Assembly: GCA_011046365.1 (NCBI GenBank)
Contig: DSAS01000048.1
Span: 1 to 43,786, forward strand
Length of the DNA stretch: 43,786 bases
From: Fidelibacterota bacterium
GTDB taxonomy: Bacteria > Fidelibacterota > UBA2242
Reading direction: 5' to 3'
Below the pieces are notes generated by a model, which was given only the letters and a program-made list of their open reading frames with translations, was not told the DNA's origin and did not search any database. Each line of letters opens with the position of its first letter. The first letter of the stretch is position 1. Made by a program: the position numbers and the translations under genes. Positions 10,985 to 38,150 of this stretch are shown here, one piece after another.

Positions 10985-13939
10985 TTATCGTAAAAACAGA
11001 CACTTTTTAATATCATGAACACTCTCAGAGGCTAGCTGAATAAAATAAATCCCCGAACTCACCGTTAAACCCTTCGTATTCTTTCCGTCCCAAACAAGCT
11101 GATGGTTTCCCGCCGTCAAATGCTGTTTTATTGTTCGAATTAAACACCCGTTGACATCATAAATGAACAACTCAATTTGCCGGGAATCCGGCAGGCTGAT
11201 TTCGATCAAAGTTCGGGAATTAAACGGATTCGGGAAAATCCGCATCAGGCGGCATTTCTCAGGAATAATTACCGTTTCCACCGCATTTTCTTCAATCCGA
11301 TCACCAAACGCTTCAATTCCAAACCAAACTGTGGGCATCTGTAACTGATTCAGTAAAATACTGAATCGTCCATCTCCATCCGGTAAGATGGTTGCCGGAT
11401 GACCGTTTTCCATACCGTTACCATCCAGTCCAAAAACATGCAGCGAGTCGGCACTGATGTTCAACTTCACAGAGACAATCACCGGCTCAATTTCCGTCGG
11501 TGCATGACCCCAGTTATCGTGAAAGGTCTGCATTCCATCCCACAGCATGCCCTGATTCTGTATGCGGGTAGAAAGTGTTATTAGCGACGTTTTCGATATT
11601 CTCAGCGGGCGATTCTGCAGTGAAATCCAGGTCAGTGTGGCAACATTACCTGCCCCAACCAGTTCCAGGTCACCTACAATCAGATTTTGATAATCATGCA
11701 GCCAGCCAGTCAGACCAATAATTTTCGGTGTATTAACCGTAAAAAGATCGTTATCCCAGATTAATTCACCGGTATCTGTTGTCACCGGAAACGCCGGTGT
11801 ATAACTCACGGGCTTGATTCTCTGTAGCGCTTCAAAACTCTCAATCTTCAAAGCATGCTGCAATGCCAGCGACTGAGCAACCGGAAAATGACCGGTCCAG
11901 GAGCCGCCATCATTCTTGGGAGCCAGCAAAATATCATCGGGATGGTAGCTGATTGTTATAACCTCATTAGCCGGCTGGATACAGGCTGTGCGGAAGGCTT
12001 TGGCGCAGGTTGGCAGCAAAGCCATCATCACCGTATTCCGATGAATGCTAAAATAACTGCTGATAAAATCGGTTTCCCAATCATCCGACGAATTACCGTT
12101 ATAATCAAACAGTATCACACCATCAATATCATGAAATCCGGCATAGGCGGCTGCCATCAGGACTCCCTCGGTCTGGAACCTGTTCGGGAAGGGATGATTA
12201 TACTCGCTGACGGTATAGGGTTTGCCCTGAACCGGAACGCCGCCAAACAATGCACTGACCGTTCCGCCGATTTTACTGGTGAGCATGGAAGTATTGTGGA
12301 TCAGCCAGTCGGTACCTGACCAGGGCTCATTGGGAAACTGCGGATGATCCCAATAGGCATGATTATCAACATAATCCAGACGCGCCTGACTCACAAGATC
12401 GCCGATCCCCACATTCCAGTTCGTCCCGGTAATTGGTACCCGAACACCCAGGTCGCTTTTTAAAAATGTCGCCATTTCGTTGAACAATTCATCCTGCAGT
12501 CCGATGTAAAAGGAAGAAATATCTCGCACCCTGGCATCGGTATAACTCAGACATTCACGGTAAGCAATCCGGCGCACATTCCGGTTCTCCAGCGTTTCGT
12601 CACCCTCCAGTCCCACAACTGCCGGTTTCCCGAAAAATACATTATCAAACCAGAAAGCGCCGCTGGTGAGACCGAAACTAAATGCCAGACGGGTATTATC
12701 GGCACACATTGCAGGCGCCCGGAAGGTGAATTGGAACTCACACCACTCGGTCGTTATTTGAAAACTCCTGCCGGCGAACCAGGTCCACGGACTGGAATTT
12801 TGCAGGATCGCTAATTCAATTTCCCGCGTGGCATCAGAACGGGCGACAAAGGAAACTACATAGACCGAATCCTGTTCGATCGTCAGCGCCGGCTGTTTCC
12901 ATTGCAGATGCCAGCTTTCGGTTCCCGGTTGCAGAATCGTGATTCGGGCACATTGCTCACCCTCATAGGCATCGGCAACCCGGGTCATCAGTGCATTGGC
13001 ATTGTTATGCAATTCCATCTCCCAGTTGCCCGCCAGTGGCAGTGATTCAAAACCGCCGTCCGGAATCTGATTGACGGGGACAATCGCAGCAGCGCTCTGA
13101 TTCCAGGCAGAATCCAGGGTTTCGGTTGTCCCGTATTTTACGGACAGAAAATTCAGCCAGCGGTCATCCAGCATCCGGTTATGGCGTCGGGTCAGTTTAC
13201 CGCCCTCACTGAAATGTTTCAGTCCATCGTCCCGCCACATTCGATAAAGTGAATTTTCATTGACGATTTCAACCATTGCCATCACCGGATCGTTCACCAG
13301 CGCCAGTCTGGTATAGGGATTCACATGGGTTAGCAGTTGCCGGGCATACTCCTTCTGCAACGCGATTAAATCCGGATCAAACAGATTGACACCCTTACCA
13401 AAATCCTGTAACGAATCGGCATCGGGAATTCCATCGGCGACTTTAACAGTTCGGGAACAATGCAGATTGATATTGGCGTAAATACCATTCTGTTTCAGCA
13501 TACTGATCAGATATTCCAAACGATCGAGGGTCAGTGGATTCAGATGACGCGTGTCCTGTCCCCACTCGAATAGACTCTCTCTACTCCAGGGATTGTCCAT
13601 GTGATGAAAGCGAACCAGGTTTATTCCCATCTTGCGCATCCGACCGGCAATCAAACCGGCTTTGGCTTTGGTCGGGAAAGCGCCATCCGCCGCCAGATTC
13701 ACACCCAAAAACCGAATCCGGCGGTCCTTTACCGCAAAATGTCCCTCGCTGTTTACCATTACAAATTCATCCGCCTCAATCGGATCAACCGGAAAAGAGG
13801 GCAGAAATTTCTGCGTGCTGGAGTCATTTGCCGGTAAATAAAATTGAAAAACATTTTCAAAATTTTGCGCCACGCCTGGCTGAGCCACAATCATTAAGAT
13901 AAAGAGAAAAAATGCTTCCGCCGGATGTTTATTTTTCAT
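10985..13939 (-). CDS. Large clan GH-A-like hydrolase with internal CBM4/9-like domain and T9SS-type tail
   Basis: RRIRFLGVNLAADGAFPTKAKAGLIAGRMRKMGINLVRFHHMD, putative acid/base MVEIVNEN, putative nucleophile YTVSEYNHP; internal jelly-roll-like segment IPDGGFESLPLAGNWEME; tail IFPNPFNSRTLIEI. Confidence 0.7.
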   Translation of the reverse strand: MKNKHPAEAFFLFILMIVAQPGVAQNFENVFQFYLPANDSSTQKFLPSFPVDPIEADEFVMVNSEGHFAVKDRRIRFLGVNLAADGAFPTKAKAGLIAGRMRKMGINLVRFHHMDNPWSRESLFEWGQDTRHLNPLTLDRLEYLISMLKQNGIYANINLHCSRTVKVADGIPDADSLQDFGKGVNLFDPDLIALQKEYARQLLTHVNPYTRLALVNDPVMAMVEIVNENSLYRMWRDDGLKHFSEGGKLTRRHNRMLDDRWLNFLSVKYGTTETLDSAWNQSAAAIVPVNQIPDGGFESLPLAGNWEMELHNNANALMTRVADAYEGEQCARITILQPGTESWHLQWKQPALTIEQDSVYVVSFVARSDATREIELAILQNSSPWTWFAGRSFQITTEWCEFQFTFRAPAMCADNTRLAFSFGLTSGAFWFDNVFFGKPAVVGLEGDETLENRNVRRIAYRECLSYTDARVRDISSFYIGLQDELFNEMATFLKSDLGVRVPITGTNWNVGIGDLVSQARLDYVDNHAYWDHPQFPNEPWSGTDWLIHNTSMLTSKIGGTVSALFGGVPVQGKPYTVSEYNHPFPNRFQTEGVLMAAAYAGFHDIDGVILFDYNGNSSDDWETDFISSYFSIHRNTVMMALLPTCAKAFRTACIQPANEVITISYHPDDILLAPKNDGGSWTGHFPVAQSLALQHALKIESFEALQRIKPVSYTPAFPVTTDTGELIWDNDLFTVNTPKIIGLTGWLHDYQNLIVGDLELVGAGNVATLTWISLQNRPLRISKTSLITLSTRIQNQGMLWDGMQTFHDNWGHAPTEIEPVIVSVKLNISADSLHVFGLDGNGMENGHPATILPDGDGRFSILLNQLQMPTVWFGIEAFGDRIEENAVETVIIPEKCRLMRIFPNPFNSRTLIEISLPDSRQIELFIYDVNGCLIRTIKQHLTAGNHQLVWDGKNTKGLTVSSGIYFIQLASESVHDIKKCLFLR

Positions 13940-13940
13940 T

Positions 13941-15809
13941 TCAATAGGTCAACCCGTAGCCGTATTCATAAAGCGGCTCATATTCGGCGTCACCGACGTT
14001 CACCGGAATCTGGTCCATGCTTCCCGGCCAGGAATGGGACAACTTGCCCGTCGGTGCATAGTCACCAAACAACACATCAGCGACGCCGGCCCCTTCGGTA
14101 CCCGGCAGCCAGGCGGCTACAATTCCATCGCAGAGGAGGATTAAATTATCCAAAATCAATGGACGCCCTGAGACAATCACGACCACAGTGGGGATCCCCG
14201 CTGATCTTAAGTTTATAACCGTTGTAATATCCTGTTGGGAAAAGTTCAAATCACTGCGATCACCGACCCCTTCGGCATAGGGTGTCTCACCAATTACAGC
14301 GATGGCAATATCAGCCGTCCCCGCGTCAAGCCCATCCTGCGAGTAGGTCACCTGGATAGAATCTCCGGCTCGTTGTTGAATCGCTTCTAGAATTGTTGTC
14401 CCAGGAGTAATCGCGCCGGAACTGCCCTGCCAGGAGATTGTCCAGCCGCCGCACTGATTGCCGATATCATCGGCGTTTTTCCCGGCAACGTGAATATGCC
14501 GCACCTGATGGCTGACAGGCAGCACCTGATTATCATTTTTAAGTAAAACCAGCGACTGGCGGACACACTCCCGGGCGATATCCCGATGCGTCTGCGAACC
14601 GATTCCGGCTGTCAAAGACCGGTCGGCGAACGGATTTTCGAACAGTCCCAGCGCAAATTTCTGCCGGAGAATCCGGCTAACCGCATCATCAATCCGCAAC
14701 TCAGAAATTTTACCCTGATTTACCAGCTGAAGGGTAGTAGCCAAAAATTCCTGATAACGCTGCGGCAGCATGATCATATCAATTCCGGCATTAACAGCGG
14801 TTTCAATATCACTGCCGAAATCCCCCGGCAGTTGATCAATCCCACTCCAGTCGGACACCAGAAATCCATTAAAACCCAGCTCATCCTTCAATACCGTCGT
14901 CAGCCAGTAGGAGTTGCCGTGCATCTTTTCACCATTCCAACTGCTGTAAGATGCCATTATCGAGCCGGCACCGGCGTTAATTGCGGCTATATAACCCGGT
15001 AGATGAATCCGGCGCATGGTGGTTTCATCCGCTTCCGTATTGCCCTGATCGTGCCCGCCGGTGGTACCACCATCACCCAGAAAATGTTTGGGACAGGCTA
15101 AAATAGCCGAATTATCCGCCAGATCACCGCCCTGATAACCGGTAACCGCGGCAGCTGCCATCATCTCTGCCAGTTCCGGCGTTTCACCAAAACCTTCGTA
15201 AGTGCGTCCCCAGCGTTCATCCCGCACTACGGCGATACAGGGTGAAAAGGTCCAGCGAATACCGGTTCCTGCCACCTCCTCCGCCGTTGCCCGGGCAGCC
15301 CGCTGTACCAGATCGGGATTACGCGTACAGCCCAATCCGATATTATGGGGAAAAATCACGGCGCCGTAAACGTTATTATGACCATGAACCGCGTCAATGC
15401 CATAAAGTAAGGGAATTCCCAGACGGGAGTTAAGAGCCTGAATTTGAAACCTGTCTACCATATCCGCCCAGGCAGACGGCTGATTAACCGCCGGCACCGA
15501 CCCACCACCACTGAGAATACTGCCGATCCCGTAAGTCTGGATATCCACTTCATTTTGTAAAAAACCGCGGTCAATCTGGATCATCTGACCGATCTTTTCA
15601 GCCAGTGTCATCCGGGCGAGGAGGTCTGTAACCCGCTCTTCTATACTACGACGGGGATTTTTATAAATTTCAGTGTAACGGGGACCGGTAGAAGCCTCTT
15701 TCGTGCAGCTTGCTGCCAGAAAATACAATCCGATCAGTAAACAGACATAGATTGGATTTAGCCAGAAGTAACGGCATTTTTGGTCATTTCTTTTGAAAGA
15801 CCCGTACAT
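13941..15809 (-). CDS. GH3 beta-glucosidase-like lipoprotein
   Basis: Lipobox-like LYFLAASC; MTLAEKIGQMIQIDRG; GIDAVHGHNNVYGAVIFPHNIGLG; CPKHFLGDGGT; GFLVSDWSGIDQL. Ends at YGYGLTY, so no C-terminal Fn3 domain. Confidence 0.88.
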   Translation of the reverse strand: MYGSFKRNDQKCRYFWLNPIYVCLLIGLYFLAASCTKEASTGPRYTEIYKNPRRSIEERVTDLLARMTLAEKIGQMIQIDRGFLQNEVDIQTYGIGSILSGGGSVPAVNQPSAWADMVDRFQIQALNSRLGIPLLYGIDAVHGHNNVYGAVIFPHNIGLGCTRNPDLVQRAARATAEEVAGTGIRWTFSPCIAVVRDERWGRTYEGFGETPELAEMMAAAAVTGYQGGDLADNSAILACPKHFLGDGGTTGGHDQGNTEADETTMRRIHLPGYIAAINAGAGSIMASYSSWNGEKMHGNSYWLTTVLKDELGFNGFLVSDWSGIDQLPGDFGSDIETAVNAGIDMIMLPQRYQEFLATTLQLVNQGKISELRIDDAVSRILRQKFALGLFENPFADRSLTAGIGSQTHRDIARECVRQSLVLLKNDNQVLPVSHQVRHIHVAGKNADDIGNQCGGWTISWQGSSGAITPGTTILEAIQQRAGDSIQVTYSQDGLDAGTADIAIAVIGETPYAEGVGDRSDLNFSQQDITTVINLRSAGIPTVVVIVSGRPLILDNLILLCDGIVAAWLPGTEGAGVADVLFGDYAPTGKLSHSWPGSMDQIPVNVGDAEYEPLYEYGYGLTY

Positions 15810-16653
15810 AATCTACTTCCATGCGCTGCGGAAAACTTGTTGTATTATCGGGATTCCCGGGCCAATTGCCCCCCACGGCTACATTCAACAAGAGATGAAA
15901 ACGCTGATCAAAGGGCGCCGGATAAGCATGTCTGGTCGAATACCAGGAAGTCTGGGTCTGATAAAGCATATTATCAACATACCAGCGAAATTGAGTGCTG
16001 TCCCAATCAAGTGTGAAGGTGTGAAAACCGGTAGCAAACGTACCATTGGACAATGAGTAGGAATCACCAGTATGGACATTATTCGGCCATTCCCCACCGT
16101 AATGCAGCGTGCCATAAACCTTTTGGGGTTCGTGACCAAGCAGCTCCATAATGTCAATTTCACCGCTGGCTGCCCAGCCGCCATAAACCCAATCTGTCGG
16201 CAACATCCAAATCGCCGGCCAAAGTCCCTGCCCACAGGGTAATTTGGCACGAATTTCAAAACGCCCGTATTTCCAGTCACCCCGGTTCTTTGTCCGCAAC
16301 CGGGCAGATGTATATTCGCGGGTCCCTTCCGGTCCCGTGTAATTTTCCTTTATCGCCTGAATCACTAAAACCGAATCCTCAATCCAGGAATTTTGAAACC
16401 GATCTGTATAATATTGCAATTCGTTATTGCCACCACCCAGGGCGTTGACCTCGTGTTCCCACTTTGTCAGATCAATCTCAGCACCGTTAAATTCATCATG
16501 CCAGACCAGTTCATAACCTTCAGGTATTGGGATGGTATCAGCAGCCTGGGAATTGCCGTGATTCTCAGCAATGCCACCGCATCTCAACATCAGGCAGAAG
16601 GAAAACAGCCAGAGCGCAGTCAGTTTAATATTCGTCATCATTTTATTCCACAA
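15784..16653 (-). CDS. GH16 laminarinase-like lipoprotein
   Basis: LVWHDEFNGAEIDLTKWEHEV, GRFEIRAKLPCGQGLWPAIWMLP, catalytic GEIDIMELLGHEP, VYGTLHYGG. Signal with lipobox-like LMLRCGG; more likely start about 16641. Confidence 0.9.
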   Translation of the reverse strand: MWNKMMTNIKLTALWLFSFCLMLRCGGIAENHGNSQAADTIPIPEGYELVWHDEFNGAEIDLTKWEHEVNALGGGNNELQYYTDRFQNSWIEDSVLVIQAIKENYTGPEGTREYTSARLRTKNRGDWKYGRFEIRAKLPCGQGLWPAIWMLPTDWVYGGWAASGEIDIMELLGHEPQKVYGTLHYGGEWPNNVHTGDSYSLSNGTFATGFHTFTLDWDSTQFRWYVDNMLYQTQTSWYSTRHAYPAPFDQRFHLLLNVAVGGNWPGNPDNTTSFPQRMEVDYVRVFQKK

Positions 16654-18898
16654 TTTTACAGGTAATTTTCATAACATCAACAGAATTTCCGCCAACCATA
16701 ATTTCAAATTCACCAGGCTCTACGATAAATTCATAGTTATCATTATAAAATCCAAACACCTTATTATCGAGTATAAAGGTAACGTCCCGGCTCTCGCCTG
16801 CTTTCAGCTCCACTTTTTCAAATGCCTTTAACTCTTTCACCGGGCGGGCAATGGAGGCAACAAGATCCCTGATATACAGCTGCACTACCTCCCGGGCACT
16901 ATATTTTCCGGTATTTTTAAGAGTAACACCTACCCGGAGTGGCTCTCCTATTCTGATTACAGGGCGGTTAAGTCTCAGATTCTCATATTCAAAATCCGTG
17001 TAACTAAGTCCGTAGCCAAAAGGATAAAGCGGCTCTTTGGGACCGTCAATATATTTTGACACAAAACCTTGCTGATCATTCAGTTGTGGTCTTCCGGTAT
17101 TGAGTTCATTATAAACCAGCGGCTCCTGACCGACATGATACGGAAAAGTCACCGGTAATTTACCCGAAGGAACAACATCGCCGAATAAAATATCGGCAAT
17201 GGCATTCCCCGACTCACTCCCCGCCTCCCAGCTCATTAAAATAGCGGGAACGTTTTCAGCAAGCCAGGGAATGGTTAGCGGACGACCGCCGAACAGGACC
17301 ACAACCATCGGTTTTCCCAGCCTGTTCAACTCCTGTAACAGCTCCAGCTGCCTTCCCGGAAGTCCAACATCCATACGGCTGCGGGCTTCACCGGACATCA
17401 TGGCGGTTTCACCAACGGCAGCGATAATGACTTCCGATCGGCGGGCTGCTTTAATCACACTTTTAACATCAATTTTCCCGTCAAAACTGCGGACATTGTT
17501 GTTATCAATATCAAGACCTTTAACAAAATTAATGCGGGTTTCCGGCGATACTATCGCCTGAATACCTTCCAGAAGAGAAACCGCATTATCAGCGCCCGCC
17601 TGACAGCGCCAGTTACCCAGCGGTGAATCTTTGTCATTCGACAATGGTCCGACAACAGCAACGGACTTAATATCCTTAGACAGCGGCAGTAAGTTGTCAC
17701 TGTTTTTCAGCAATACCATTGATTCTGCGGCAATCTTACGTGAAATTGCCCTATTTTCATCCGTCAGTAGCTGGGTCTTTTCACGTTCTTCCGAACAATA
17801 TTTATAGGGATCATCAAACAGTCCCAGCTGATATTTAATTGTCAGAATACGCCCTACGGATTCATCAATCAGGGCTTCATCAACTTTTCCTTCCTGCACA
17901 AGATTTTCCAGATGACGCCGGTAAGCAAAGGATTCCATGTCCATATCAGTCATCCCGGTGGCTGCGATTTCAGCCGCCTGTTTCAGATTCGCCGCTACCC
18001 CATGGTTAATCAACTCCGCAATGGAGGACCAATCCGACACCACGAAGCCCTCGAACCCCCATTTTCCTTTTAAAACATCCTTGACCAGAAAGCGGTTTCC
18101 GGTAGCCGGTATACCATTCAGTGTATTAAAAGCGTTCATAAAAGTGACGGCACCGGCATCAACGGCGGCTTTAAAAGGCGGTAGATAAATATTGTAAATG
18201 GAATAGAGAGACAATTCAACGGAATTGTAATCCCGTCCGGCTCGGGCGGCACCATAGGCGGCATAATGTTTGGCGCAAGCGGCAATAGTATTTTCTGAAC
18301 TCAGATCGTTTCCCTGGTAACCTCTTACCTGGGCGGCAACCATTTGAGAGGCAAGATAGGGGTCTTCACCGGCACCTTCCATGATTCTGCCCCAACGGGC
18401 ATCGGGCGAAATATCCGCCATCGGGGCAAAAGTCCAGTGTATCCCCGCGGCGGCGGCTTCCCCAGCTGCAACCGCTGCCGCCTTTTCTACCAGTTCCGGA
18501 TTCCAGGTCGCCGCCATCGCCAGAGGAACCGGAAAAGATGTTTTATATCCGTGAATTACATCTATCCCGAAAATTAAGGGTATATGCAGGCGGCTACTAT
18601 CCACGGCTAATTGCTGTGCGGCACGGGTCGCCGCAGCACCAACGACATTCAGCATGGAGCCAACATTCCCGTTTTTTATGTCATTATAACGATAGGCTTT
18701 GGCATCATCCTCCGGTTTTGGACCGGTCATGTCCCACTTATTACTGTACTGGTTCATCTGTCCAATTTTTTCGGTCAATGTCATCCGGGATAACAGATTT
18801 GCCACTTTCCCGGCGATTTCTTCCGGCGACAGCGCCTGCCCTAAAACTGCTGCAGTTAATAATCCCAGAATAAGCTGAATCCAGACAAACTTTCTCAT
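16643..18898 (-). CDS. GH3 beta-glucosidase (BglX-like), exported
   Basis: MTLTEKIGQMNQYS, IFGIDVIHGYKTSFPVPLAMAATWNPEL, CAKHYAAYGAARAGRDYN, GFVVSDWSSI, C-terminal Fn3-like domain. ORF given to 18928, but ATG at 18898 has AAGGAAAA upstream and starts the signal peptide MRKFVWIQLILGLL. Confidence 0.92.
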   Translation of the reverse strand: MRKFVWIQLILGLLTAAVLGQALSPEEIAGKVANLLSRMTLTEKIGQMNQYSNKWDMTGPKPEDDAKAYRYNDIKNGNVGSMLNVVGAAATRAAQQLAVDSSRLHIPLIFGIDVIHGYKTSFPVPLAMAATWNPELVEKAAAVAAGEAAAAGIHWTFAPMADISPDARWGRIMEGAGEDPYLASQMVAAQVRGYQGNDLSSENTIAACAKHYAAYGAARAGRDYNSVELSLYSIYNIYLPPFKAAVDAGAVTFMNAFNTLNGIPATGNRFLVKDVLKGKWGFEGFVVSDWSSIAELINHGVAANLKQAAEIAATGMTDMDMESFAYRRHLENLVQEGKVDEALIDESVGRILTIKYQLGLFDDPYKYCSEEREKTQLLTDENRAISRKIAAESMVLLKNSDNLLPLSKDIKSVAVVGPLSNDKDSPLGNWRCQAGADNAVSLLEGIQAIVSPETRINFVKGLDIDNNNVRSFDGKIDVKSVIKAARRSEVIIAAVGETAMMSGEARSRMDVGLPGRQLELLQELNRLGKPMVVVLFGGRPLTIPWLAENVPAILMSWEAGSESGNAIADILFGDVVPSGKLPVTFPYHVGQEPLVYNELNTGRPQLNDQQGFVSKYIDGPKEPLYPFGYGLSYTDFEYENLRLNRPVIRIGEPLRVGVTLKNTGKYSAREVVQLYIRDLVASIARPVKELKAFEKVELKAGESRDVTFILDNKVFGFYNDNYEFIVEPGEFEIMVGGNSVDVMKITCKIVE

Positions 18899-18924
18899 AA
18901 TAAATATTTTCCTTCTTTGTTCAA

Positions 18925-20736
18925 TCATTTGACCAATATCATCTTTCGTGTCTCTGAAAAAGACTCCCCGGCATGGCTGACATCCATACGATAAAAATAG
19001 AGACCTCCCGGTACATTATCAGGCTGCCAATCAATGACATATTTACCAGAATTCAGAAAATTATCGACAACACAGGCGATCTCTCTACCCAATAAATTAT
19101 AAATTTTTATCGTAACGTCCGCCGGACTCATGGTCCGGTACTCAATCGTCGTTACCGAATTGAAGGGGTTGGGGTAATTCTGACTCAGATAAAAGTGAGC
19201 CGGAATGCCGTTTTCAGATTGTCCCGTTTCGCTCACATGCTGGTTGATGATAACTCCATTTAACAGGGTATAATCTTTGTTGTCTGCCAGATGAATATCA
19301 AGAATACCGTCGTTAATCCAAACATTGGGCACTTCCAGAAGGAACGCAGTATGCGATCCAACTTCGGTAAAAAGATCCAGATCACGGATCACATATACAC
19401 CCTCAACATTGATATCCATTAACCGACAATCTGCCGCGCTAAAATAATTTTCCGCCAGCATCAGCGTAACGTCGTAAGCCCCGGTAGGCAGACGAACCTG
19501 GTATTTGACAATACCGCGCTGCTCAGTCTGATAAACCAAATCATCGGTTGTTCCGGAAATCGCTTGTCCGTAAAAACTGCCCGGCGTACCGCCTAATTGT
19601 CCATAATCCCCTTCGTGAGTCCAGTTTTGATCAGCCAGCCAGTCACCATAAGCGTCACCACCAACATTTATTTTCAGCGGATATTGCCAGCCGGGTGGTG
19701 TCTGAATTGAAACTGATTGTCCAAGTAAAGTATTCGCCGGAGTAGCCAGGTCTTTTATCCCTAATACAACCAAACTGTGGCTCGAGTTTTCATCCAACCC
19801 CTTAACGACCAGTTTCACATGTCGGTGATTGCGTTGCTGAATCGCTTTTACAACCGTAACACCTGAAATCAAATAATTCCCGACTTTCTCTGCACTCTCC
19901 TGAGTAATCTCTTCGGAAAAAGCCACGAGCACGGTATCCCTTTCATAACGGGCAAATTGCACAAAGGGTTTATTTTTGTCGGTGTAGCCGGTGTTTACCG
20001 CATCGGTCAGACATAATACCATTTTCCCGTCCAGGAACACACAATTATCAGGTGTAAAATCACTGTTGTTGCCGTTCCAGGTATGGGAGGCTTTTGCCCA
20101 GCGGTTGGTATCCCAGCTCTCAAAATCATCCCGCCATAAAAAGGTGAAATTATTTCCCGTTCCGACATCTCCGGAGCCAGGTGTATAGGAGGCATAACTG
20201 ACCCAGTCATAATAGGCAAAAAAGGGCAGCGTGCGGCTGTCCAGGGTGCCTACCCAGGAGCTATACGCCGGCGGCCAGATATTCATCATGATTTTTTGAT
20301 CCAGGTTCAAGGCTGTAATATGATCGCCTGTTTGGCGGTGTACCTCCTCCCCTTCGACAAACCAGGCTACATAATCCGGTGTCCATTCGATGGCATAGGT
20401 GTAAAAATCGGCGGTCGGGTCAAAATTTACCCATTGATGATGTTCGTGATTTGCCTGTCCGGGCGTGATCGGATTAAACTGCACATCGTCGGTATAGCGA
20501 CCCAGAATTTCGATATCCAGTTCATTCCATTCGCTGACCCCGCCACTGCCCAACTCATGATAGGTAAAAAATGTGGAGGTCTGCCCAGCACCATAAGAGG
20601 CTTTGTAATTGACTTCAAAACGACCGTAAATATAGGTACTTTTTGTCCGTAATTCAGCCCCTTTGAAATCTTTGCCATATACAACGACCGGCAATATCAG
20701 GAATATTAGTAAGTATCTTTGCATGGAAAAATCCAC
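18925..20736 (-). CDS. Circularly permuted GH16 lichenase-like enzyme with Ig-like and malectin-like domains and T9SS-type tail
   Basis: KDFKGAELRTKSTYIYGRFEV...SEWNELDIEILG (catalytic E-x-D-x-x-E) precedes FTFLWRDDFESWDTNRWAKASHTWNGNNSDFTPDNCVFLDGKMVLCLTD, which is N-terminal in ordinary GH16 lichenases. Malectin-like LKINVGGDAYGDWLADQNW...; tail NYPNPFNSVTTIEY. Confidence 0.88.
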   Translation of the reverse strand: MDFSMQRYLLIFLILPVVVYGKDFKGAELRTKSTYIYGRFEVNYKASYGAGQTSTFFTYHELGSGGVSEWNELDIEILGRYTDDVQFNPITPGQANHEHHQWVNFDPTADFYTYAIEWTPDYVAWFVEGEEVHRQTGDHITALNLDQKIMMNIWPPAYSSWVGTLDSRTLPFFAYYDWVSYASYTPGSGDVGTGNNFTFLWRDDFESWDTNRWAKASHTWNGNNSDFTPDNCVFLDGKMVLCLTDAVNTGYTDKNKPFVQFARYERDTVLVAFSEEITQESAEKVGNYLISGVTVVKAIQQRNHRHVKLVVKGLDENSSHSLVVLGIKDLATPANTLLGQSVSIQTPPGWQYPLKINVGGDAYGDWLADQNWTHEGDYGQLGGTPGSFYGQAISGTTDDLVYQTEQRGIVKYQVRLPTGAYDVTLMLAENYFSAADCRLMDINVEGVYVIRDLDLFTEVGSHTAFLLEVPNVWINDGILDIHLADNKDYTLLNGVIINQHVSETGQSENGIPAHFYLSQNYPNPFNSVTTIEYRTMSPADVTIKIYNLLGREIACVVDNFLNSGKYVIDWQPDNVPGGLYFYRMDVSHAGESFSETRKMILVK

Positions 20737-22278
20737 TTATTCCGTTATAGTCAAGCGGCTACCGTAATCCAGTTTATTATCGGTCGTCAAAAGCGGAAAA
20801 GATGGACTGACAATCGGATAGGCGACCCCTTTTTGAACGGCGAAAAGATCAATATCGGTCAATTGTATTTTTTCAAAAGCCTCCGTGTTAATTTGAATCT
20901 TGTCATTGTACCTGACCTGCAGGCTGTCAACAATCGGATTCATAACAGTTTCAATGACCCTGGTATAATTTTTTCCAAATTCAGCCAGGGCACCGAATTT
21001 TTCCAGATAACGGTTCCGCTGGTATATGGCGAGCAAATTATCCTGCCATAAAGCCGTATAATTCTCGACTTCTGGCAATTTATCATAACCTGCCTGATAG
21101 GCAGCGGTATTAATCCGTAAATCCCTGAGTAAATCGGCAATCGCCAATTTCAGCTGTTCCGGAAATTCCCGTCGGCTTATCTGCCGTTTTCGGAATACCA
21201 GTGGGTGCGACTGAATAGCCTTTTCCAGGTCCGCCACCCTCCAAACCTTTCCGTCAAAATCCAACAGCGGCTCTTCTCGAATCTGTTCAACATCGGCGTT
21301 CCAGGATGGATCGAGTTCGATTTCTGAGTTGGCGCCCCAGAAGCGTTGATTGAAAGCCCGCTTCTTATCATCCAGGTTTTTCAGATACACCGGCGCCAGG
21401 ATTTCCGCCAACCGGAAAAAGGTCTGCTCCCGCAATTCCATCTTTTTCCCCTGCATGAGTCGGGCAACCTCGGCTGAATACACCCGGTTCGCAGCCTGGG
21501 TTTTCAATTTGTCGTATACATCTTGATAGCGCTGACGGATGTCCCACTCGCTGACAGCCGGCTCGGTCGTCCAGCCGCTGATTTGCATGATCATCCAGCT
21601 GCCGTCGGGATTTTGAAGCGGTCCAAGCAGCTGGTTTTTCGTCAGCGGCTCAGAATAAAAAATTTCCTGATATTCATCACTCAGATCATCCTTAAAACTG
21701 ATCTCCCGTTGGGGAATTGGTGCACCATTCAAAAGGTCTGCCGCCAATGAATCAAAAGAAATATTTTGCATCGCATGCAAGTGTAAAAATTGTGCCACGG
21801 TCGCCTCATCTGGCAAGCGCAGATAGTGTATCTGATATTTCCGACCAGCCAATTGATACACCTTATTAACCAATGCCGTATCGGGATTTGCTTTTTCCCA
21901 CGCCTTCCGGAGGTAATACACCTGCCGCATAGCCTGTTCCCGGCGTCCTTTGATATAATTCCGGAATTCCTCGTTGAGCACTAATTCATTATCCGCACCC
22001 GCTTCCAACGCCAACATTTTTTCGGCAATCAGCGAATTGAGCACGATTTTGCGGTGAATGTAATAGTCCTGCCTGCAATAGGTTGGTCGGATTGTATATT
22101 CCGCTCGTCTGATAAATTCGTCTGTGGTAATAATCCGGTCGCCAACTTTCGCCAATATTTTTTCCGGCGGAATCGCCGGTTCCGGCTGACTGCAAGCCCC
22201 GAATAAAACCGCCACCCCGATTAAGAGCGATTTCACGAAAAACGTGATTTTTAAATTGTAATGATCCATCTCAATCAA
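20737..22278 (-). CDS. SurA/PpiC-like foldase lipoprotein (parvulin-type PPIase homologue)
   Basis: Lipobox LFGACSQ; N-terminal KILAKVGDRIITTDEFIRRAEYT...LNSLIAEKMLALEAG typical of SurA_N-like chaperones; YQIHYLRLP...DGSWMIMQISGWT. Confidence 0.65.
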   Translation of the reverse strand: MIEMDHYNLKITFFVKSLLIGVAVLFGACSQPEPAIPPEKILAKVGDRIITTDEFIRRAEYTIRPTYCRQDYYIHRKIVLNSLIAEKMLALEAGADNELVLNEEFRNYIKGRREQAMRQVYYLRKAWEKANPDTALVNKVYQLAGRKYQIHYLRLPDEATVAQFLHLHAMQNISFDSLAADLLNGAPIPQREISFKDDLSDEYQEIFYSEPLTKNQLLGPLQNPDGSWMIMQISGWTTEPAVSEWDIRQRYQDVYDKLKTQAANRVYSAEVARLMQGKKMELREQTFFRLAEILAPVYLKNLDDKKRAFNQRFWGANSEIELDPSWNADVEQIREEPLLDFDGKVWRVADLEKAIQSHPLVFRKRQISRREFPEQLKLAIADLLRDLRINTAAYQAGYDKLPEVENYTALWQDNLLAIYQRNRYLEKFGALAEFGKNYTRVIETVMNPIVDSLQVRYNDKIQINTEAFEKIQLTDIDLFAVQKGVAYPIVSPSFPLLTTDNKLDYGSRLTITE

Positions 22279-22376
22279 ATTATAGACGGCATAAAATTAC
22301 CACCCAAAACAACAACACATTGGATGATTTCTCAGTCAGATAGTCGGGCATATTTAATAATCAATGATTGCTCCGG

Positions 22377-23474
22377 CTAAAAAATAACGCCAAGGGTATA
22401 GGAATGCGTGTTACCGAGAATTCCAACCGGTTTGAAAGCATAGTCAACTTTAATGGCGTAATTGTTCAGGAAATTCAACTTCAGCCCGCCACCAAAAGTA
22501 CCCCCGAATTCTGTTTCGTCCATGAACAAAGATTTATAACCGCCACGCAGAAAGAAACTCCCGCTGCCCGGAATTGTGATGGCATATTCAGCCCCGACAT
22601 TCACCGACTCGGCATTATTATTGGGGTGGAGTGCATCTGCAGCCAGGGTAAGACGCGTATAGCGGGTCACCAGCGGTCGAACCGAGACGCCAATCCGGAA
22701 AATCAACGGCAGCTCCCATTCCTGCAAGTTAAACTTGCCTTTAACAGAACTATAATTACCAGCCTCATTGGGCAGAATATCAATCGGAAATAACAGGTCC
22801 ATACCGTCATAACGCATCCGGGAGCCATAATTGGAAATGCTCATCCCAATGCGCATTCCATCCTCATATTTATTCGTCACGGAAAAGAATCCGGTATTCA
22901 CATTCACCCCCAAATCAACCGCCATAGCAGAGGCAGAAGTATGCCAAATTTGAGAACTAATATACTTCGCAGAAGCCCCGAACGCAAACCACTGCGCCAG
23001 TTTGCGGGCAAAGGTAACACTAAAACAGTAGTCATTGGCAGTATACAATTCACCGGTGCCATCCTGATTTTCCAGGGTCGTCACCGGTTCATTACCATAA
23101 CCAACATGATTCATCGCCAGAGCAAAAGTACCCGCTGACGGTGATATATAGGCGACGGCTACAAATTCATTGCTGATATCCACTACCCAGGGTTGGTACA
23201 TGAACAGCACTTCATTGCGATCCATAAAAGCCAGCCCCGCCGGATTCCAGTACACCGACGAAAGATTACCGACCATGCTCACATAAGATTCGCCCATGGC
23301 ATTACCGTCACTGCCGACGCCCAGCTCCAGAAAGTTTGCCGCAGTCGTGCCTACACGGTAGGGTTTCTGCGCCTCAAGTAAACCGGTCTGAAGCAGAAGA
23401 GTAACTATAAGTATACCAAAGAATATAGTATGCTGAGGGAGTTTCTTATTGCTGTATTTCATTAACGCTCTCAT
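22377..23474 (-). CDS. PorV/PorQ-family outer membrane beta-barrel protein
   Basis: GTTAANFLELGVGSDGNAMGESYVSMVGNLSSVYWNPAGLAFMDRNEVLFMYQPWVVDISNEFVAVAY is characteristic of PorV/PorQ (UPF0164-like) proteins. Confidence 0.8.
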   Translation of the reverse strand: MRALMKYSNKKLPQHTIFFGILIVTLLLQTGLLEAQKPYRVGTTAANFLELGVGSDGNAMGESYVSMVGNLSSVYWNPAGLAFMDRNEVLFMYQPWVVDISNEFVAVAYISPSAGTFALAMNHVGYGNEPVTTLENQDGTGELYTANDYCFSVTFARKLAQWFAFGASAKYISSQIWHTSASAMAVDLGVNVNTGFFSVTNKYEDGMRIGMSISNYGSRMRYDGMDLLFPIDILPNEAGNYSSVKGKFNLQEWELPLIFRIGVSVRPLVTRYTRLTLAADALHPNNNAESVNVGAEYAITIPGSGSFFLRGGYKSLFMDETEFGGTFGGGLKLNFLNNYAIKVDYAFKPVGILGNTHSYTLGVIF

Positions 23475-23492
23475 CTTGATTCCCTGTCTGAA

Positions 23493-26400
23493 TTATTTAA
23501 TAATGGCAAATTTGCCGACCTTTTCATCCCTGGTCAGTTCGGACTGGACATGATAAATATACATGCCTGCCGCAACTTCAAGATTTTCCCGCGTCAGCAA
23601 ATCCCAGTGGGCAATTCCGTTTTCGGCGCTGTTATTTACCTGGATCACGTCCACCAAGACCCCACTGACTGTGAAAATCCGAATGGTACAGCGGGCTGGT
23701 AGATTGGTAAACATAATCCGGCGTCGCTGATTGAGAAACCAGTTGGCAACGGATGTCTCCATGGCATTGGTCGCCACATAGGGGTTGGGCACTACTTTAA
23801 TATCTTTCATCGTGTGCTTTAACGCCTGTCGGTCAATGGAATCGGTTTTAACAATACTAAACCGGATTTTATCGGTTATATAAAAGGGGCGCATAAAGGT
23901 GACCCGGTAAACATCATTTGCCTTAGGCAACAGGTCTGCGTTTCCGTAGGCTGACAGAAAATCAATAGCAAAGACGCTGCCTACCCATTTTCCGCTACTA
24001 TCCAGAGCACCCACATAAATCCGGTCTTCCAGAATATCGTACTGACCATTTTTATTCAGATCATGTACAATTAGATCCATCATTTCCAGCGAGTCTGTAA
24101 ATGATTTATTGACAACATAAAAATTGAAATCCTCACTCGTCAGCAGATCACGGGTTTGGCGGACGTGGTCAATATCCCTTATCCAGGAAGTACTGCCTTT
24201 GCCCGTATAGCTGACATCATCGGTGAAAATTATATCATAATCCCACGGGAAATAGCGAGACTCTGTTTTTGTCGGCGTAACCGTAATCGGCGCTGAACCG
24301 ACTACCCACTTTGAAACGGCATTATTATACTGGGCTGTTCGAACCGGCATCTGAATGTTCAGTACCAATCCATCAAATACATCCGTTTTAATATTCCCGA
24401 TCGTATTGATATACCAATTCCCCAAGGTGTCATCATAGACCAGATTGGTCCCGGTAAAATTGTCGGAATTTTCCAGATACACCTCATTAGAATCAGTGAC
24501 ATCAAAAACCCGGATACTGTTGTTGCTATAATAAACTCCATGATCATAATTTTCGATAACTCCCAGGGTATCCAGACCGAAACTCACTTCGTAGTTGTGT
24601 CCCGGTTTCAGACTGCTGTTGGCGATAATTTCAGGGACAACTGTGCCTGATCCAAGAATTTCCTGAACCGCGGACATCATGACTTCCTCCGGAATATAGC
24701 CGGCGGCTTTTTGATGCGGGGTCACGACCTGAACGTTTTTACTGTAACCCTTGACATTTTCGGCTTCATCCAGACTGATGATGATATTATTTTCCGAAGG
24801 TGCGATGCCGGGTCCGATATCCGGAGCACCGTAATCGTAGGCGACAATGGCATAATAGTAGGTGCGCCCATTTTGGACATTAGTGTCTTCAAACCAGTGG
24901 CGGATCCCGGAATCGGTGCCGAGGTTATAGCCCATTCCGTTGACCAGCCCAAAGTCTGTAAATCCCATCCGACCGTCTTTTTTGTCACACTGGAAAATGG
25001 GTTTCATAAACATCGGAGTTCCATAGCCGTCGGTAATCACCTGTGCGTCCGACATTTTTTTATCCGTGGCACGAAACAGTTTGTAGCCCTCAAAATCATT
25101 GACATTACCGACAAAGGGATCCCGGGTTTTAGTATCGGCGATATTATCCCAGGTCAGAATAACCCGACCGTCACCGGCAGTGGCTTGCAGCGTGGGCATT
25201 TTCGGCGGCTGGGCAAAGCGGTAATCCTTTTCGTAAATCACCTGCACGATGCGCTTCAGTTCAAAGAGCGCCGGTGCCGAGTGCTCATCCGAATTGAGTC
25301 CTTCGAGGGGATCGTAAGAATGCAATTCCGACATGGAAATCCGTTCCCGGCGCCCCTGGTAAAGCGGGAATGGTCCGGAGGCAAAGGTTTCCACCAGGTT
25401 GCTGATATTGCCCAGATATTCGATCAGGGTATCGGAACCAATCACTTCCCACATTGATTTGTCATTCCGAAACCATTTGGTATAGGGTGGACGATGGGGC
25501 GGGATCGGAAAGAGTTGAAAGGCGGTCAATCCTACCATATCGGATTCACTGACATCGAGAACGGCAAAATTGGGTTCACAACCAATCCCTTCAACATAAT
25601 CCGGCTTGTGATTACACTCGCCTTCGTCGGGTCCATAATAATTCAATTCGCCGGGTGCTACACCATCCAGACCGATATCATCGCCGGCATATTCCCCGGC
25701 ATCATATATGCCGTTTCCATTTAAATCTTCGCCATCCTGCCAGTCCTGATCTTCATCCGCATCCCAGTGCTCTTTCAGGTCCGCTTCGGTTAACCGGTAA
25801 AATCTTAAAAAATCAGCCAAATTCGCGATGCCCTCGTAGGGTCCGACTTTTCTTGTAGCGATATTATCCCGTCTTTCATCAACTAAACCATCCCCGTCGT
25901 TATCAATCCCGTCATCAGGGAGTCCCGGACTCTCCAGATATGCAAAGCCCATCGTTCCCGTTGGGTAACCGCCCTGACCGATACCGTCAATATCCCAGGA
26001 ATACGCCATATCAATACTGCGATCGAAATAGCCCAGTTCATCGTCATCGCCGGCACCGGCAACATTGTCGCCGATAGCATTGTCAACCCAATAGCCGAAG
26101 GCAACTTCAGGCAGGTCATAATCAGAAATGTTGGCAATGTTATACTCCCAGAAAATCGCATCCCGCGCCTGGGGATTGTTCCATTGAAAACCGCGCTGTT
26201 CCACCCGAATTCCGATGCCGCCCCAGGGTTTGCCATACTGGACCGTCACGGAGGGTCGTTTATCACCGATAAAGACACCCGGACGCGGATAATATTTAAC
26301 CCGGTCTTCGGGACCTAAATACTCCTGATCCTGGGCATCATTGGCAACGAAATAGGTCTCCAGATCGGCATAAATCACACCCCTGCCAAAGCGTCCGTCC

Positions 26401-26999
26401 CATTCCCCTTGCCACTTGAGCTGATCACCGGCAGCCGGCCAACCTGCCGGCGGCCAAGAAAGCGAATCATTGCTCATAGCCGGTGTTTCACTATGTTCAT
26501 TAAAATACCCAAAGACCGGATAAAGTCCCCACTCAATCTGTCCCGTCGGGTCTTTATCCATCTCCTCACGATAATGAGTCTGCAGAAAATAGAGCGTGTC
26601 CAGTTTCCCTTCATCGTTCAGGCTTTGGCGCTCATCGGAATCGGTAACCGGAATCGTATCCTGTGTGATAAAAACCTGAGCACCGATCAGCAATGCAACT
26701 CCATCCAACATCTTGGTGCCTTCATAGGTATCCGGCCATTTAGAAACCTCTACTTTCGGCCAGTCGGACAACTGGGTAGTATTTTTAAAATACAAAAATA
26801 CCCGGTTGCCGGTCATATAGCCTTCGCGAATAGCCGCCGGATCACCGGCAGGGTCATCGGGTCCTTCATATTTTTTACCCTGTCCCAGCAGGATGCTGGA
26901 AAGTAGGGTTAAAGAATAGATCAATGCGTAAAATCCCGGCATTAATTTCATTGATTTACGATCTCCTCTGGCGTCTGTATTTGATATAACGTTAGACAT
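23493..26999 (-). CDS. Large secreted protein of unknown function with acidic D-x-D-x-D-G loops, Fn3-like segment and C-terminal sorting-like tail
   Basis: Signal-like MKLMPGFYALIYSLTLLSSILLGQ (probable start ATG 26951 with AGAGGAG upstream); PDDGIDNDGDGLVDERRDN, DLNGNGIYDAGEYAGDD; C-terminus VVPNPYVATNAMET...GVLVDVIQVN...AAGMYIYHVQSELTRDEKVGKFAIIK. Confidence 0.7.
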   Translation of the reverse strand: MSNVISNTDARGDRKSMKLMPGFYALIYSLTLLSSILLGQGKKYEGPDDPAGDPAAIREGYMTGNRVFLYFKNTTQLSDWPKVEVSKWPDTYEGTKMLDGVALLIGAQVFITQDTIPVTDSDERQSLNDEGKLDTLYFLQTHYREEMDKDPTGQIEWGLYPVFGYFNEHSETPAMSNDSLSWPPAGWPAAGDQLKWQGEWDGRFGRGVIYADLETYFVANDAQDQEYLGPEDRVKYYPRPGVFIGDKRPSVTVQYGKPWGGIGIRVEQRGFQWNNPQARDAIFWEYNIANISDYDLPEVAFGYWVDNAIGDNVAGAGDDDELGYFDRSIDMAYSWDIDGIGQGGYPTGTMGFAYLESPGLPDDGIDNDGDGLVDERRDNIATRKVGPYEGIANLADFLRFYRLTEADLKEHWDADEDQDWQDGEDLNGNGIYDAGEYAGDDIGLDGVAPGELNYYGPDEGECNHKPDYVEGIGCEPNFAVLDVSESDMVGLTAFQLFPIPPHRPPYTKWFRNDKSMWEVIGSDTLIEYLGNISNLVETFASGPFPLYQGRRERISMSELHSYDPLEGLNSDEHSAPALFELKRIVQVIYEKDYRFAQPPKMPTLQATAGDGRVILTWDNIADTKTRDPFVGNVNDFEGYKLFRATDKKMSDAQVITDGYGTPMFMKPIFQCDKKDGRMGFTDFGLVNGMGYNLGTDSGIRHWFEDTNVQNGRTYYYAIVAYDYGAPDIGPGIAPSENNIIISLDEAENVKGYSKNVQVVTPHQKAAGYIPEEVMMSAVQEILGSGTVVPEIIANSSLKPGHNYEVSFGLDTLGVIENYDHGVYYSNNSIRVFDVTDSNEVYLENSDNFTGTNLVYDDTLGNWYINTIGNIKTDVFDGLVLNIQMPVRTAQYNNAVSKWVVGSAPITVTPTKTESRYFPWDYDIIFTDDVSYTGKGSTSWIRDIDHVRQTRDLLTSEDFNFYVVNKSFTDSLEMMDLIVHDLNKNGQYDILEDRIYVGALDSSGKWVGSVFAIDFLSAYGNADLLPKANDVYRVTFMRPFYITDKIRFSIVKTDSIDRQALKHTMKDIKVVPNPYVATNAMETSVANWFLNQRRRIMFTNLPARCTIRIFTVSGVLVDVIQVNNSAENGIAHWDLLTRENLEVAAGMYIYHVQSELTRDEKVGKFAIIK

Positions 27000-27001
27000 A
27001 A

Positions 27002-29746
27002 TTAAAACTCAATTCCAAGACCAACTTTGATCAGCCGTGGCGCTGAATACATACCGGGGTTTTGAATCCGGTCCAGGTAATCATTGAAAACACTCTTATG
27101 ACTGTTCAGGTCGGTCTCCCGGATGATTGCCGTGTAGGCTCGCCCGGTTTGACTGTTCACATATCCTTCATTCAACCGATCCAGCAGATTATAAATTGTC
27201 AGGGTCAGTTTGGCATTTACCCGATCGGACAGTGCAATATTGTAATGACCGTTCAAATCAAATCTGATTTGTGCGGGCATGGTGGAATTATTTGGTAATA
27301 AATTCACCCGGAACAGCATAGTGTTGCTCACCGGAGACCAGGTATAGGGCGTTCCGGATTCATAATAGCCGGTCAGGGTAGCACCAAACTTTTTAGTATT
27401 ATATCCCGTTGTAACGTTCAGCGTGTGACGCTGGTCCCAGGACATGGGAATCATCTGGTTGACCGGGTCAATACTATCACCGGCACGGTTATAAGTCATG
27501 GTGGGATTATCGGCATTCCCGCGGGTATATTGAAGCGTATAATTCAGATTTACAAAAAATTGGTGATAGATGTATTTGTACTTAACCTCAAGACCACGGG
27601 CGTTACCGTAGTCCTTATTCGTATACAGACCGTATTCTGTTTGATTATATGTACTGACAACCTTGACGCTCAGCAAATCATAAATATCACGGTAGTATAG
27701 CGCCACTTCCAGGTCCATTCCGCTCATCAATTCCTGCCAGAGTCCAATTTCATACTGGACTGTTTTCTGGGCGTTGATCGTCGGATTTCCCAGGATGGTT
27801 TCATAATCAGTAGGCGAAATCCGATAGGAGTTACCGACATAAAGCGCATATCCCGGCGGCATCTGAAAGAAGTGCCCATAGCTAAAATGCAACACCGCCG
27901 TCGAGCCCAACTGATATGAAAGTCCGAGACGGGGACTGATTTGAGTCTTTGGCTTGGCATAGACATATTCCGACATTTTTTCCGGATTATCGGGAAATCG
28001 GATTTGATTGGCGGGGTTCCGCCATTGACTCGGGTAGCGTTTATCCGGCTCAAAATAGTCGTAGCGTACCCCTACATTGATAACCATGTTATCGAATTCC
28101 ATTTTATCCTGAAGATAGACTGAATATTCAATGGGCTTCACATAAATAGAATCGGTGTAAATCGTGGTATCATGCAGGGTCGTCGGTTCGTAATTGGGGA
28201 AAATGATCTTTGTTTTCCCGTCAATCAGACGGATTTCAAACTCCCCTTCAAGGTCTGTATCTCTGTAAATATTTTGAATTTGACGCTCCTTGCTATCAAT
28301 GATATGACCGGTATAGTGTAGACCGGTTTTAAAACTGTGATGTTTATTCATCTGCCAGGTCAAATCAAATTTGGCATTTTTATCAATCATCGTCCGCATG
28401 GTATGATGCTTCTGCTGTCCGCCGGTGAAAAAACCCGGTCCGTCACTCTGATTGTAGACATCATGGACATAAAGGGAATCGGTGGGATTTTTATAAACAT
28501 AATTACCATAATAATTATCAACATAAGATAGTTTCAATTCGTAAAACAGGGATCTGCCCAACATGTGGTTGATATTCAGGGCAACCATTTTTGAGAAACG
28601 GCGTGGCGTTGCCAACCCATCGGGATTATATTTGTATTGGTGATTGTACTGACCCCAAAGGTTTTTATTGATGGTAGTCAATAATGAAATTTTAAAATTC
28701 TTAAACAATTGGGAAGATAACTTACCCATAAATGATGATTCGACATTACGGTTCATGGGTACATAGGCGCTGTCACCGTTAAATTCATAATACCACAGTG
28801 CCGGATTATCTTCACCATAATAGCTAAAATCATCCACATTAAACAAACGGTAGCCATTGAGGTGGTTTTTATTATCCTGATGACGAAAATTGACCAGAAA
28901 GAACAGCCGGTTCTTCAGTATTGGTCCGCTGAGGTTGAGCTTATAATCCTGATTACGGGTAATTTCACCCGGCTTCAGACCGATGAAGATATCATCGTGA
29001 GATGTGTAATAATTGCCCATTGCTCCTGACATTGAACCATGAAAAGTGTTATCACCAACCTTGGTTACGGCATTCACTATTCCGCTCATGGCTTTACCAT
29101 ATTCGGCATTAAAAGTACCGGTGATAACCTCCAGGTCCTGAATGGACTCCGGCTCCAAATCCACCGACCGACCCTCGCCGCCAAATCCTTCGTCCACCGG
29201 AATACCGTCAATCATATAGGATACTTCCGTTGGACGTCCTCCCCGGAAATGACCTTTTACTACTCCGGCTTGCATGGATACGACATCACTAATACTTTCG
29301 ATTGGTAACGCTTCAATTTCATCGGACGAAACGTTTTTGACCGTACTGGTCTGATCCTTCCTGACCGAAATTTTCTGAGCCGTCACAATGACCTCTTGAC
29401 CCTCAAGTACAGTTGCAGTCATCCCAATTTCCAAATACTCGGTTCGATTAACTGAAACCTGAACTTCCTGCACCGTAACAGGATTGTATCCAATCATCTG
29501 CGCCCTCACCGAATAACTTCCAGGTCTGACATTGATGATATAAAAATCGCCGTTTTCATCCGCCGCCGCCCCCAGGGACGTCCCGACCAGGATGATATTT
29601 GCACCCGGTAAGGCATTGCCATTCGCTTTATCAAATATGCGCCCGGATATTTTACCGGTTGTTTGGGGATAGCTTATTATCGAACCGATCACTACAATCA
29701 AAGCGATCCAAAAACATTTACATTTTAAATTTGTTAATCGGACCAT
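27002..29746 (-). CDS. TonB-dependent receptor with N-terminal carboxypeptidase-regulatory-like domain (SusC-like)
   Basis: GKISGRIFDKANGNALPGANIILVGTSLGAAADENGDFYI; plug domain TVKNVSSDEIEALPIESISDVVSMQAGVV...GGRPTEVSYMIDGIPV...GTFNAEYGKAMSGIVNAVTKVG; barrel through KVGLGIEF. Confidence 0.92.
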   Translation of the reverse strand: MVRLTNLKCKCFWIALIVVIGSIISYPQTTGKISGRIFDKANGNALPGANIILVGTSLGAAADENGDFYIINVRPGSYSVRAQMIGYNPVTVQEVQVSVNRTEYLEIGMTATVLEGQEVIVTAQKISVRKDQTSTVKNVSSDEIEALPIESISDVVSMQAGVVKGHFRGGRPTEVSYMIDGIPVDEGFGGEGRSVDLEPESIQDLEVITGTFNAEYGKAMSGIVNAVTKVGDNTFHGSMSGAMGNYYTSHDDIFIGLKPGEITRNQDYKLNLSGPILKNRLFFLVNFRHQDNKNHLNGYRLFNVDDFSYYGEDNPALWYYEFNGDSAYVPMNRNVESSFMGKLSSQLFKNFKISLLTTINKNLWGQYNHQYKYNPDGLATPRRFSKMVALNINHMLGRSLFYELKLSYVDNYYGNYVYKNPTDSLYVHDVYNQSDGPGFFTGGQQKHHTMRTMIDKNAKFDLTWQMNKHHSFKTGLHYTGHIIDSKERQIQNIYRDTDLEGEFEIRLIDGKTKIIFPNYEPTTLHDTTIYTDSIYVKPIEYSVYLQDKMEFDNMVINVGVRYDYFEPDKRYPSQWRNPANQIRFPDNPEKMSEYVYAKPKTQISPRLGLSYQLGSTAVLHFSYGHFFQMPPGYALYVGNSYRISPTDYETILGNPTINAQKTVQYEIGLWQELMSGMDLEVALYYRDIYDLLSVKVVSTYNQTEYGLYTNKDYGNARGLEVKYKYIYHQFFVNLNYTLQYTRGNADNPTMTYNRAGDSIDPVNQMIPMSWDQRHTLNVTTGYNTKKFGATLTGYYESGTPYTWSPVSNTMLFRVNLLPNNSTMPAQIRFDLNGHYNIALSDRVNAKLTLTIYNLLDRLNEGYVNSQTGRAYTAIIRETDLNSHKSVFNDYLDRIQNPGMYSAPRLIKVGLGIEF

Positions 29747-38136: not shown

Positions 38137-38150
38137 CTGATATTATCCTG

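Follow-up and report, generated by a model that had tools for sequence, protein, structure and literature searches.

A putative lichenase with a naturally circularly permuted GH16 domain, a malectin domain and a T9SS sorting tail in a Fidelibacterota genome

The 1,3-1,4-beta-D-glucanase of Fibrobacter succinogenes (1MVE, 1ZM1 and 3AXD) is the textbook natural circular permutant and is usually presented as a single case from the rumen. Canonical GH16_21 lichenases, such as those of Bacillus (1GBG) and Acetivibrio (3WVJ), share its fold, its catalytic motif and the aromatic residues at subsites -1 and +1, but carry the two blocks of the domain in the reverse order. Permutants of a Bacillus hybrid lichenase engineered in the laboratory (1CPM and 1CPN) have their termini in nearly the same loop, although without a TPG-type linker.

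Here, we analysed a stretch of 43,786 nucleotides (the window) from a draft Fidelibacterota genome that is 89% complete. The open reading frame (ORF) at 18925–20736 on the reverse strand (Table 1) encodes what we consider, with high confidence, to be a secreted GH16 endo-beta-1,3-1,4-glucanase of the lichenase type (GH16_21-like) and a natural circular permutant with the breakpoint and linker of the Fibrobacter enzyme.

Table 1. Features of the permuted GH16 gene and its neighbours in the window
Feature	Positions	Strand	Basis
Signal peptide MQRYLLIFLILPVVVYG	20674..20724	-	From ATG 20724; sequence read directly; helix 2-15 in model
Permuted GH16 catalytic block (canonical C-terminal part), KDFKGAEL...YASY	20185..20673	-	Pfam GH16; block HMM; colinear with 3axd/1mve
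Catalytic motif E-L-D-I-E (nucleophile, Asp, acid/base)	20509..20523	-	Alignment; F. succinogenes E56, D58, E60; three acidic residues invariant in 140/140 permuted domains
Linker TPGSGDVGTGN, old C terminus to old N terminus	20152..20184	-	Aligned to F. succinogenes TPGQGEGG; 5-12 residues between blocks in 140 relatives
Canonical N-terminal block, now rear, NFTFLWRDDFESWDTNRW...LCLTD	20002..20151	-	C-N order in block HMM; full-length fold match; DTNRW Trp invariant in 140/140
Ig-like domain	19690..19977	-	Big_5 in 6/58 relatives; strand-rich domain in model
Malectin domain (probable carbohydrate binding, CBM57-like)	19273..19677	-	PF11721, 2.8e-16; 57/58 relatives; Foldseek match to human malectin 9ikp
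T9SS type A sorting domain (YPNPFN...)	18928..19176	-	TIGR04183; 58/58 relatives; PorU sortase in same genome
GH3 beta-glucosidase (BglX-like), next gene, 4-base overlap	16643..18928	-	Profile matches; adjoins permuted GH16 in many loci of the window's phylum
Second GH16, canonical order, laminarinase/EglC-like	15784..16653	-	Profile matches; block HMM
GH3	13941..15809	-	Profile matches
CBM4_9 protein, weak GH5 match, T9SS tail	10985..13939	-	Pfam
GH5-CBM6 protein, T9SS-type tail	8999..10972	-	Profile matches
Putative lipoprotein without family match; by eye, possibly SurA/PPIC-like	20737..22278	-	Upstream; kept in most close relatives
PorV/PorQ-family outer-membrane protein	22377..23474	-	NF033709, 209 bits (cut-off 90)
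1168-aa protein, weak T9SS-like tail, no Pfam match	23493..26999	-	Conserved in operon
TonB-dependent receptor	27002..29746	-	Pfam; conserved in operon

Block order and predicted fold of the GH16 domain

Direct reading of the sequence showed an intact, real gene, encoding 603 amino acids from a GTG at 20736 or 599 from an ATG at 20724. The more likely start is the ATG, which yields a clear signal peptide, immediately behind which the mature protein opens at KDFKGAELRTKSTYIYGRFEV. The reading frame opens directly behind the stop codon of the preceding gene and shares four bases with the gene that follows, a spacing as in an operon.

The N-terminal 225 residues form a GH16 lichenase domain (Pfam GH16, 93.6 bits; cut-off 22) in which the catalytic block is followed by a TPGSGDVG linker and then by the block that is normally N-terminal. 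In a PDB sequence search, the best match was the F. succinogenes enzyme (E = 1.3e-48, far above chance; 40% pairwise identity), with residues 20–245 of the query aligned to residues 3–230 in a single colinear stretch that includes the linker and the rear block, while alignments to the Bacillus and Acetivibrio lichenases stopped at about residue 183. When the search was repeated with the query re-ordered to canonical order, the score against the Fibrobacter chains fell by 27 bits (from 169 to 142) and the match split into two pieces, whereas scores against canonical lichenases (3i4i, 3wvj and 1gbg) rose by 12–18 bits with the front block now aligned (3wvj, 106.7 to 124.2 bits; 1gbg, 101.7 to 115 bits), as expected of a circular permutation. 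The NCBIfam BglS equivalog scored 153.8 bits, below its cut-off of 300, a shortfall due in part to the inability of permuted chains to align over their whole length. The start (K-D-F-x-G-A-E-L) and the TPG.G linker place the breakpoint where Fibrobacter-type permuted lichenases have theirs.

We compared an AlphaFold2 model of the domain, built with 79 window and locus sequences (pLDDT 97.9, pTM 0.93), to the PDB using Foldseek. The best match was F. succinogenes 1zm1 over the whole length (TM 0.91–0.94 over 229 columns), followed by other Fibrobacter structures, the engineered permutants 1cpm/1cpn (TM 0.83–0.90) and, last, the canonical lichenases, for which sequential alignment covered the catalytic block only (TM 0.61–0.67, typically about 0.65, over about 155–175 columns). 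A full-length model (pLDDT 92.5) left this ranking unchanged and added a match to malectin. Because the model superposes on the Fibrobacter enzyme over its full length but shares only the catalytic block with canonical lichenases in these alignments, the rear block is predicted to complete the same single jelly roll as the catalytic block.

These results bear on a preliminary description of the window, which had proposed a permuted GH16 domain opening at KDFKGAELRTKSTYIYGRFEV, with the motif NELDIEILG, the TPGSGDVG linker and the NFTFLWRDDFESWDTNRW block at about 20154–20002, and had noted a resemblance to the Fibrobacter enzyme. The opening and both motifs were read directly in the protein and the block was located at 20151–20002; the colinear match and the fold confirmed the permuted order, and the resemblance proved correct for order, breakpoint and linker in the PDB search and alignment. 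Of the two contrary outcomes that it named, a rear block that fails to complete the jelly roll is at odds with the model, and no canonical block was found ahead of KDFKGAEL, where the preceding ORF encodes a putative lipoprotein that is unrelated and has no GH16 match.

To map functional positions through the alignment, we used the F. succinogenes residues E56, D58, E60, W141, W148, W203 and F40. Equivalents of the first six are invariant in all 140 permuted domains collected (see below) and that of F40 is kept in 139; the W203 equivalent sits in the moved block. The marks given for GH16_21, namely a Phe platform at -1, a Trp before the catalytic motif, a conserved Trp at +1 and EXDXE (PMC6827312), are all present in the protein at positions mapped by the same alignment. 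Circular permutation of GH16 is not mentioned in that paper.

Two other readings of the domain were weighed. The rear block might be left over from another, partial GH16 domain in tandem and not the missing part of the first, and tandem lichenases do exist, both as a Clostridia ORF with a pair of canonical catalytic domains and as a tandem permuted copy (L168). However, the rear block is the only N block available to the front block and occupies that place in the model, and the model's confidence and its match to 1zm1 fit poorly with a remnant. In addition, in 139 of 140 distinct relatives the block HMM detected a single C block followed by a single N block, the exception being the tandem copy. 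On the fold match and this block order we rejected a tandem origin of the rear block, to which we give almost no weight. With respect to substrate, many GH16 subfamilies act on other glucans, and the operon also carries a laminarinase-like GH16 and several GH5 proteins, so that laminarin, xyloglucan or cellulose might be cut in place of mixed-linkage glucan. We regard this as improbable, as lichenases are by far the nearest relatives and the GH16_21 marks are in place; by this evidence the permuted enzyme very probably cuts mixed-linkage beta-glucan (cereal and lichen glucan).

Accessory domains and gene neighbourhood

Behind the GH16 domain, the Ig-like segment gave no Pfam match in the ORF itself. 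The malectin domain (PF11721, 60.4 bits; cut-off 23), the fold of which is backed by the Foldseek match of the full-length model to 9ikp, is probably carbohydrate binding and CBM57-like. The C-terminal tail matched Por_Secre_tail (30.4 bits; cut-off 27) and TIGR04183 (30.7 bits; cut-off 23), and the same genome encodes a PorU sortase (NF033707, 707 bits; cut-off 420) and dozens of sorting tails. Based on the sorting domain and PorU, the protein is a predicted T9SS type A cargo that would be exported by this system.

Fusion to malectin and a sorting tail had been put forward as a departure from the Fibrobacter enzyme, and the architectures do differ. Most Fibrobacter enzymes that we found are about 340–440 amino acids long, and the one scanned had Pfam GH16 alone with a Ser-rich and basic tail; here, the Ig-like domain, malectin domain and T9SS tail stand in place of the Ser-rich linker and basic C-terminal region that lie outside the catalytic domain in the Fibrobacter protein. 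The malectin and sorting-tail architecture is the usual form in the window's phylum and in another phylum. Judged by sequence, the protein is thus an architectural variant of the Fibrobacter-type permuted lichenase and not a copy of that enzyme.

Many loci compared within the window's phylum share the order TonB receptor, 1168-aa protein, PorV-family protein, lipoprotein (not always present), permuted GH16 and GH3/GH16/GH5. Four loci of the other phylum have the TonB receptor, 1168-aa protein, PorV, permuted GH16 and a GH3 like that at 32641–34881. The window also carries two sodium:solute symporters and further GH3 and GH5 genes, and its gene content reads as a beta-glucan utilisation locus. 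The module ahead of the glucanase (20737–29746), comprising the TonB receptor, 1168-aa protein and PorV-family protein with or without the putative lipoprotein, was thus seen in two phyla. No SusD was seen among the window proteins scanned and, for this reason, the 1168-aa protein may fill a SusD-like role. Beside the glycan locus, at 36694–39623, lie a histidine kinase and a sigma-54-dependent response regulator, a pair that probably regulates it.

In the mechanism that we propose, the chain begins just before the catalytic sheet and passes through E-x-D-x-E, a short TPG-type linker bridges the original C and N termini, and the old N-terminal strands, coming last, would close the same jelly roll and contribute to the substrate cleft. 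Export to the periplasm would depend on the Sec signal, after which the sorting tail would take the protein through the T9SS to the cell surface or the outside, where the malectin domain probably holds the enzyme on glucan. The co-encoded GH3, GH16 and GH5 enzymes would then trim the products, and the TonB receptor and symporters would import them.

Distribution of relatives and origin of the permutation

We gathered 140 distinct permuted domains; they come from Fibrobacterota, the window's phylum and a third phylum of Bacteroidota type. Counted as near-full-length colinear matches in whole-genome searches, permuted lichenases were found in 69 of 245 genomes of the window's phylum and 29 of 297 genomes of the phylum of an Ignavibacteriaceae-titled genome (both manual counts), as well as in the class of the latter genome (34/245) and the class of a Flavobacteriaceae genome (6/295). 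Most Fibrobacterota genomes with a match have a permuted one by this measure, and a scan of the whole collection returned Fibrobacter plus three loci titled Bacteroidetes or Ignavibacteriaceae. Genome searches and the block HMM detected only canonical-order lichenases, and no permuted ones, in the Clostridia searched. By these matches, at least two phyla beyond Fibrobacterota commonly carry the permuted lichenase. The Fibrobacter case was the only permuted GH16 enzyme mentioned in the literature covered, which took in few subscription journals, and earlier reports of permuted lichenases from outside Fibrobacter may exist.

Among 58 relatives of about 600–650 amino acids, all had GH16 and the sorting tail and 57 had malectin. 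Other architectures included the tail only beside permuted GH16 (L051 and, by eye, L041), permuted GH16 fused to GH5-CBM6 in one chain (L043, by Pfam) and an N-terminal extension (L142 and L144). By sequence resemblance to L043, L045 has the same GH5-CBM6 fusion. Four further permuted lichenases (L129–L132) come from the window's phylum, and three of them (L129, L131 and L132) show by eye a dockerin-like C-terminal repeat, which in L129 has no Pfam match.

Un-permuted lichenases of the Bacteroidota-type phylum were observed at L150:1690-3417 and L145:949-1986, the latter about 8 kb from the permuted gene L144 on the same contig. Their N blocks are of the sequence type of the permuted group (THTFDGN and SHTFGEN), scoring 51 bits against the permuted N-block profile compared with at most 26 for Clostridia, and L150 also has a sorting-like tail (YPNPT...), yet both keep the canonical N–C order. 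They may show the state before permutation, although the 168-sequence tree does not place them as sister to the permuted group. In Clostridia, two canonical lichenase domains share one ORF (L110/L151), and trimming of such a tandem could give rise to a permutation. The apparent C–N–C protein L168 was rejected as an evolutionary intermediate; it is a tandem permuted lichenase in which the rear block of the second copy lies in another reading frame.

Whether the permuted lichenases share ancestry or arose independently, a question posed in the preliminary description, was addressed with a tree of 168 domains, all put into canonical order. The 140 permuted domains grouped in one clade, which had 93% ultrafast bootstrap, set Fibrobacterota to one side and contained no canonical members, and both AU tests on subsets gave the single-origin tree the best likelihood. 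Trees that keep the two permuted groups apart were not rejected by the same tests, with P between 0.07 and 0.39 across the alternatives, and the catalytic block of the window protein is no nearer to Fibrobacter (37% identity) than to canonical Clostridia (up to 45%). Both observations would suit separate permutation events at one loop, in Fibrobacterota and in the lineage of the window's phylum and Bacteroidota, by chance or structural constraint; evolution would then have repeatedly chosen a site also chosen by protein engineers (1CPM). Against this stand, besides the clade and its likelihood, the identical breakpoint and TPG-type linker in both groups and a rear block of a distinct type (HTxxGN), unlike that of Firmicutes. 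It is these shared features, and not the catalytic block alone, that draw Fibrobacter closer than Clostridia. Repeated origin therefore strikes us as unlikely, albeit the most serious of the alternatives considered, and the phylogeny favours one origin of the permutation.

Across at least three phyla, the permuted lichenase forms a large family and is not a lone rumen case, with several module fusions (malectin, GH5-CBM6 and dockerin-like tails) and extant un-permuted candidates. Together, these make the permutation datable and a duplication-and-trimming route testable, and the family opens the question of whether the new termini help fusion of the domain to other modules.
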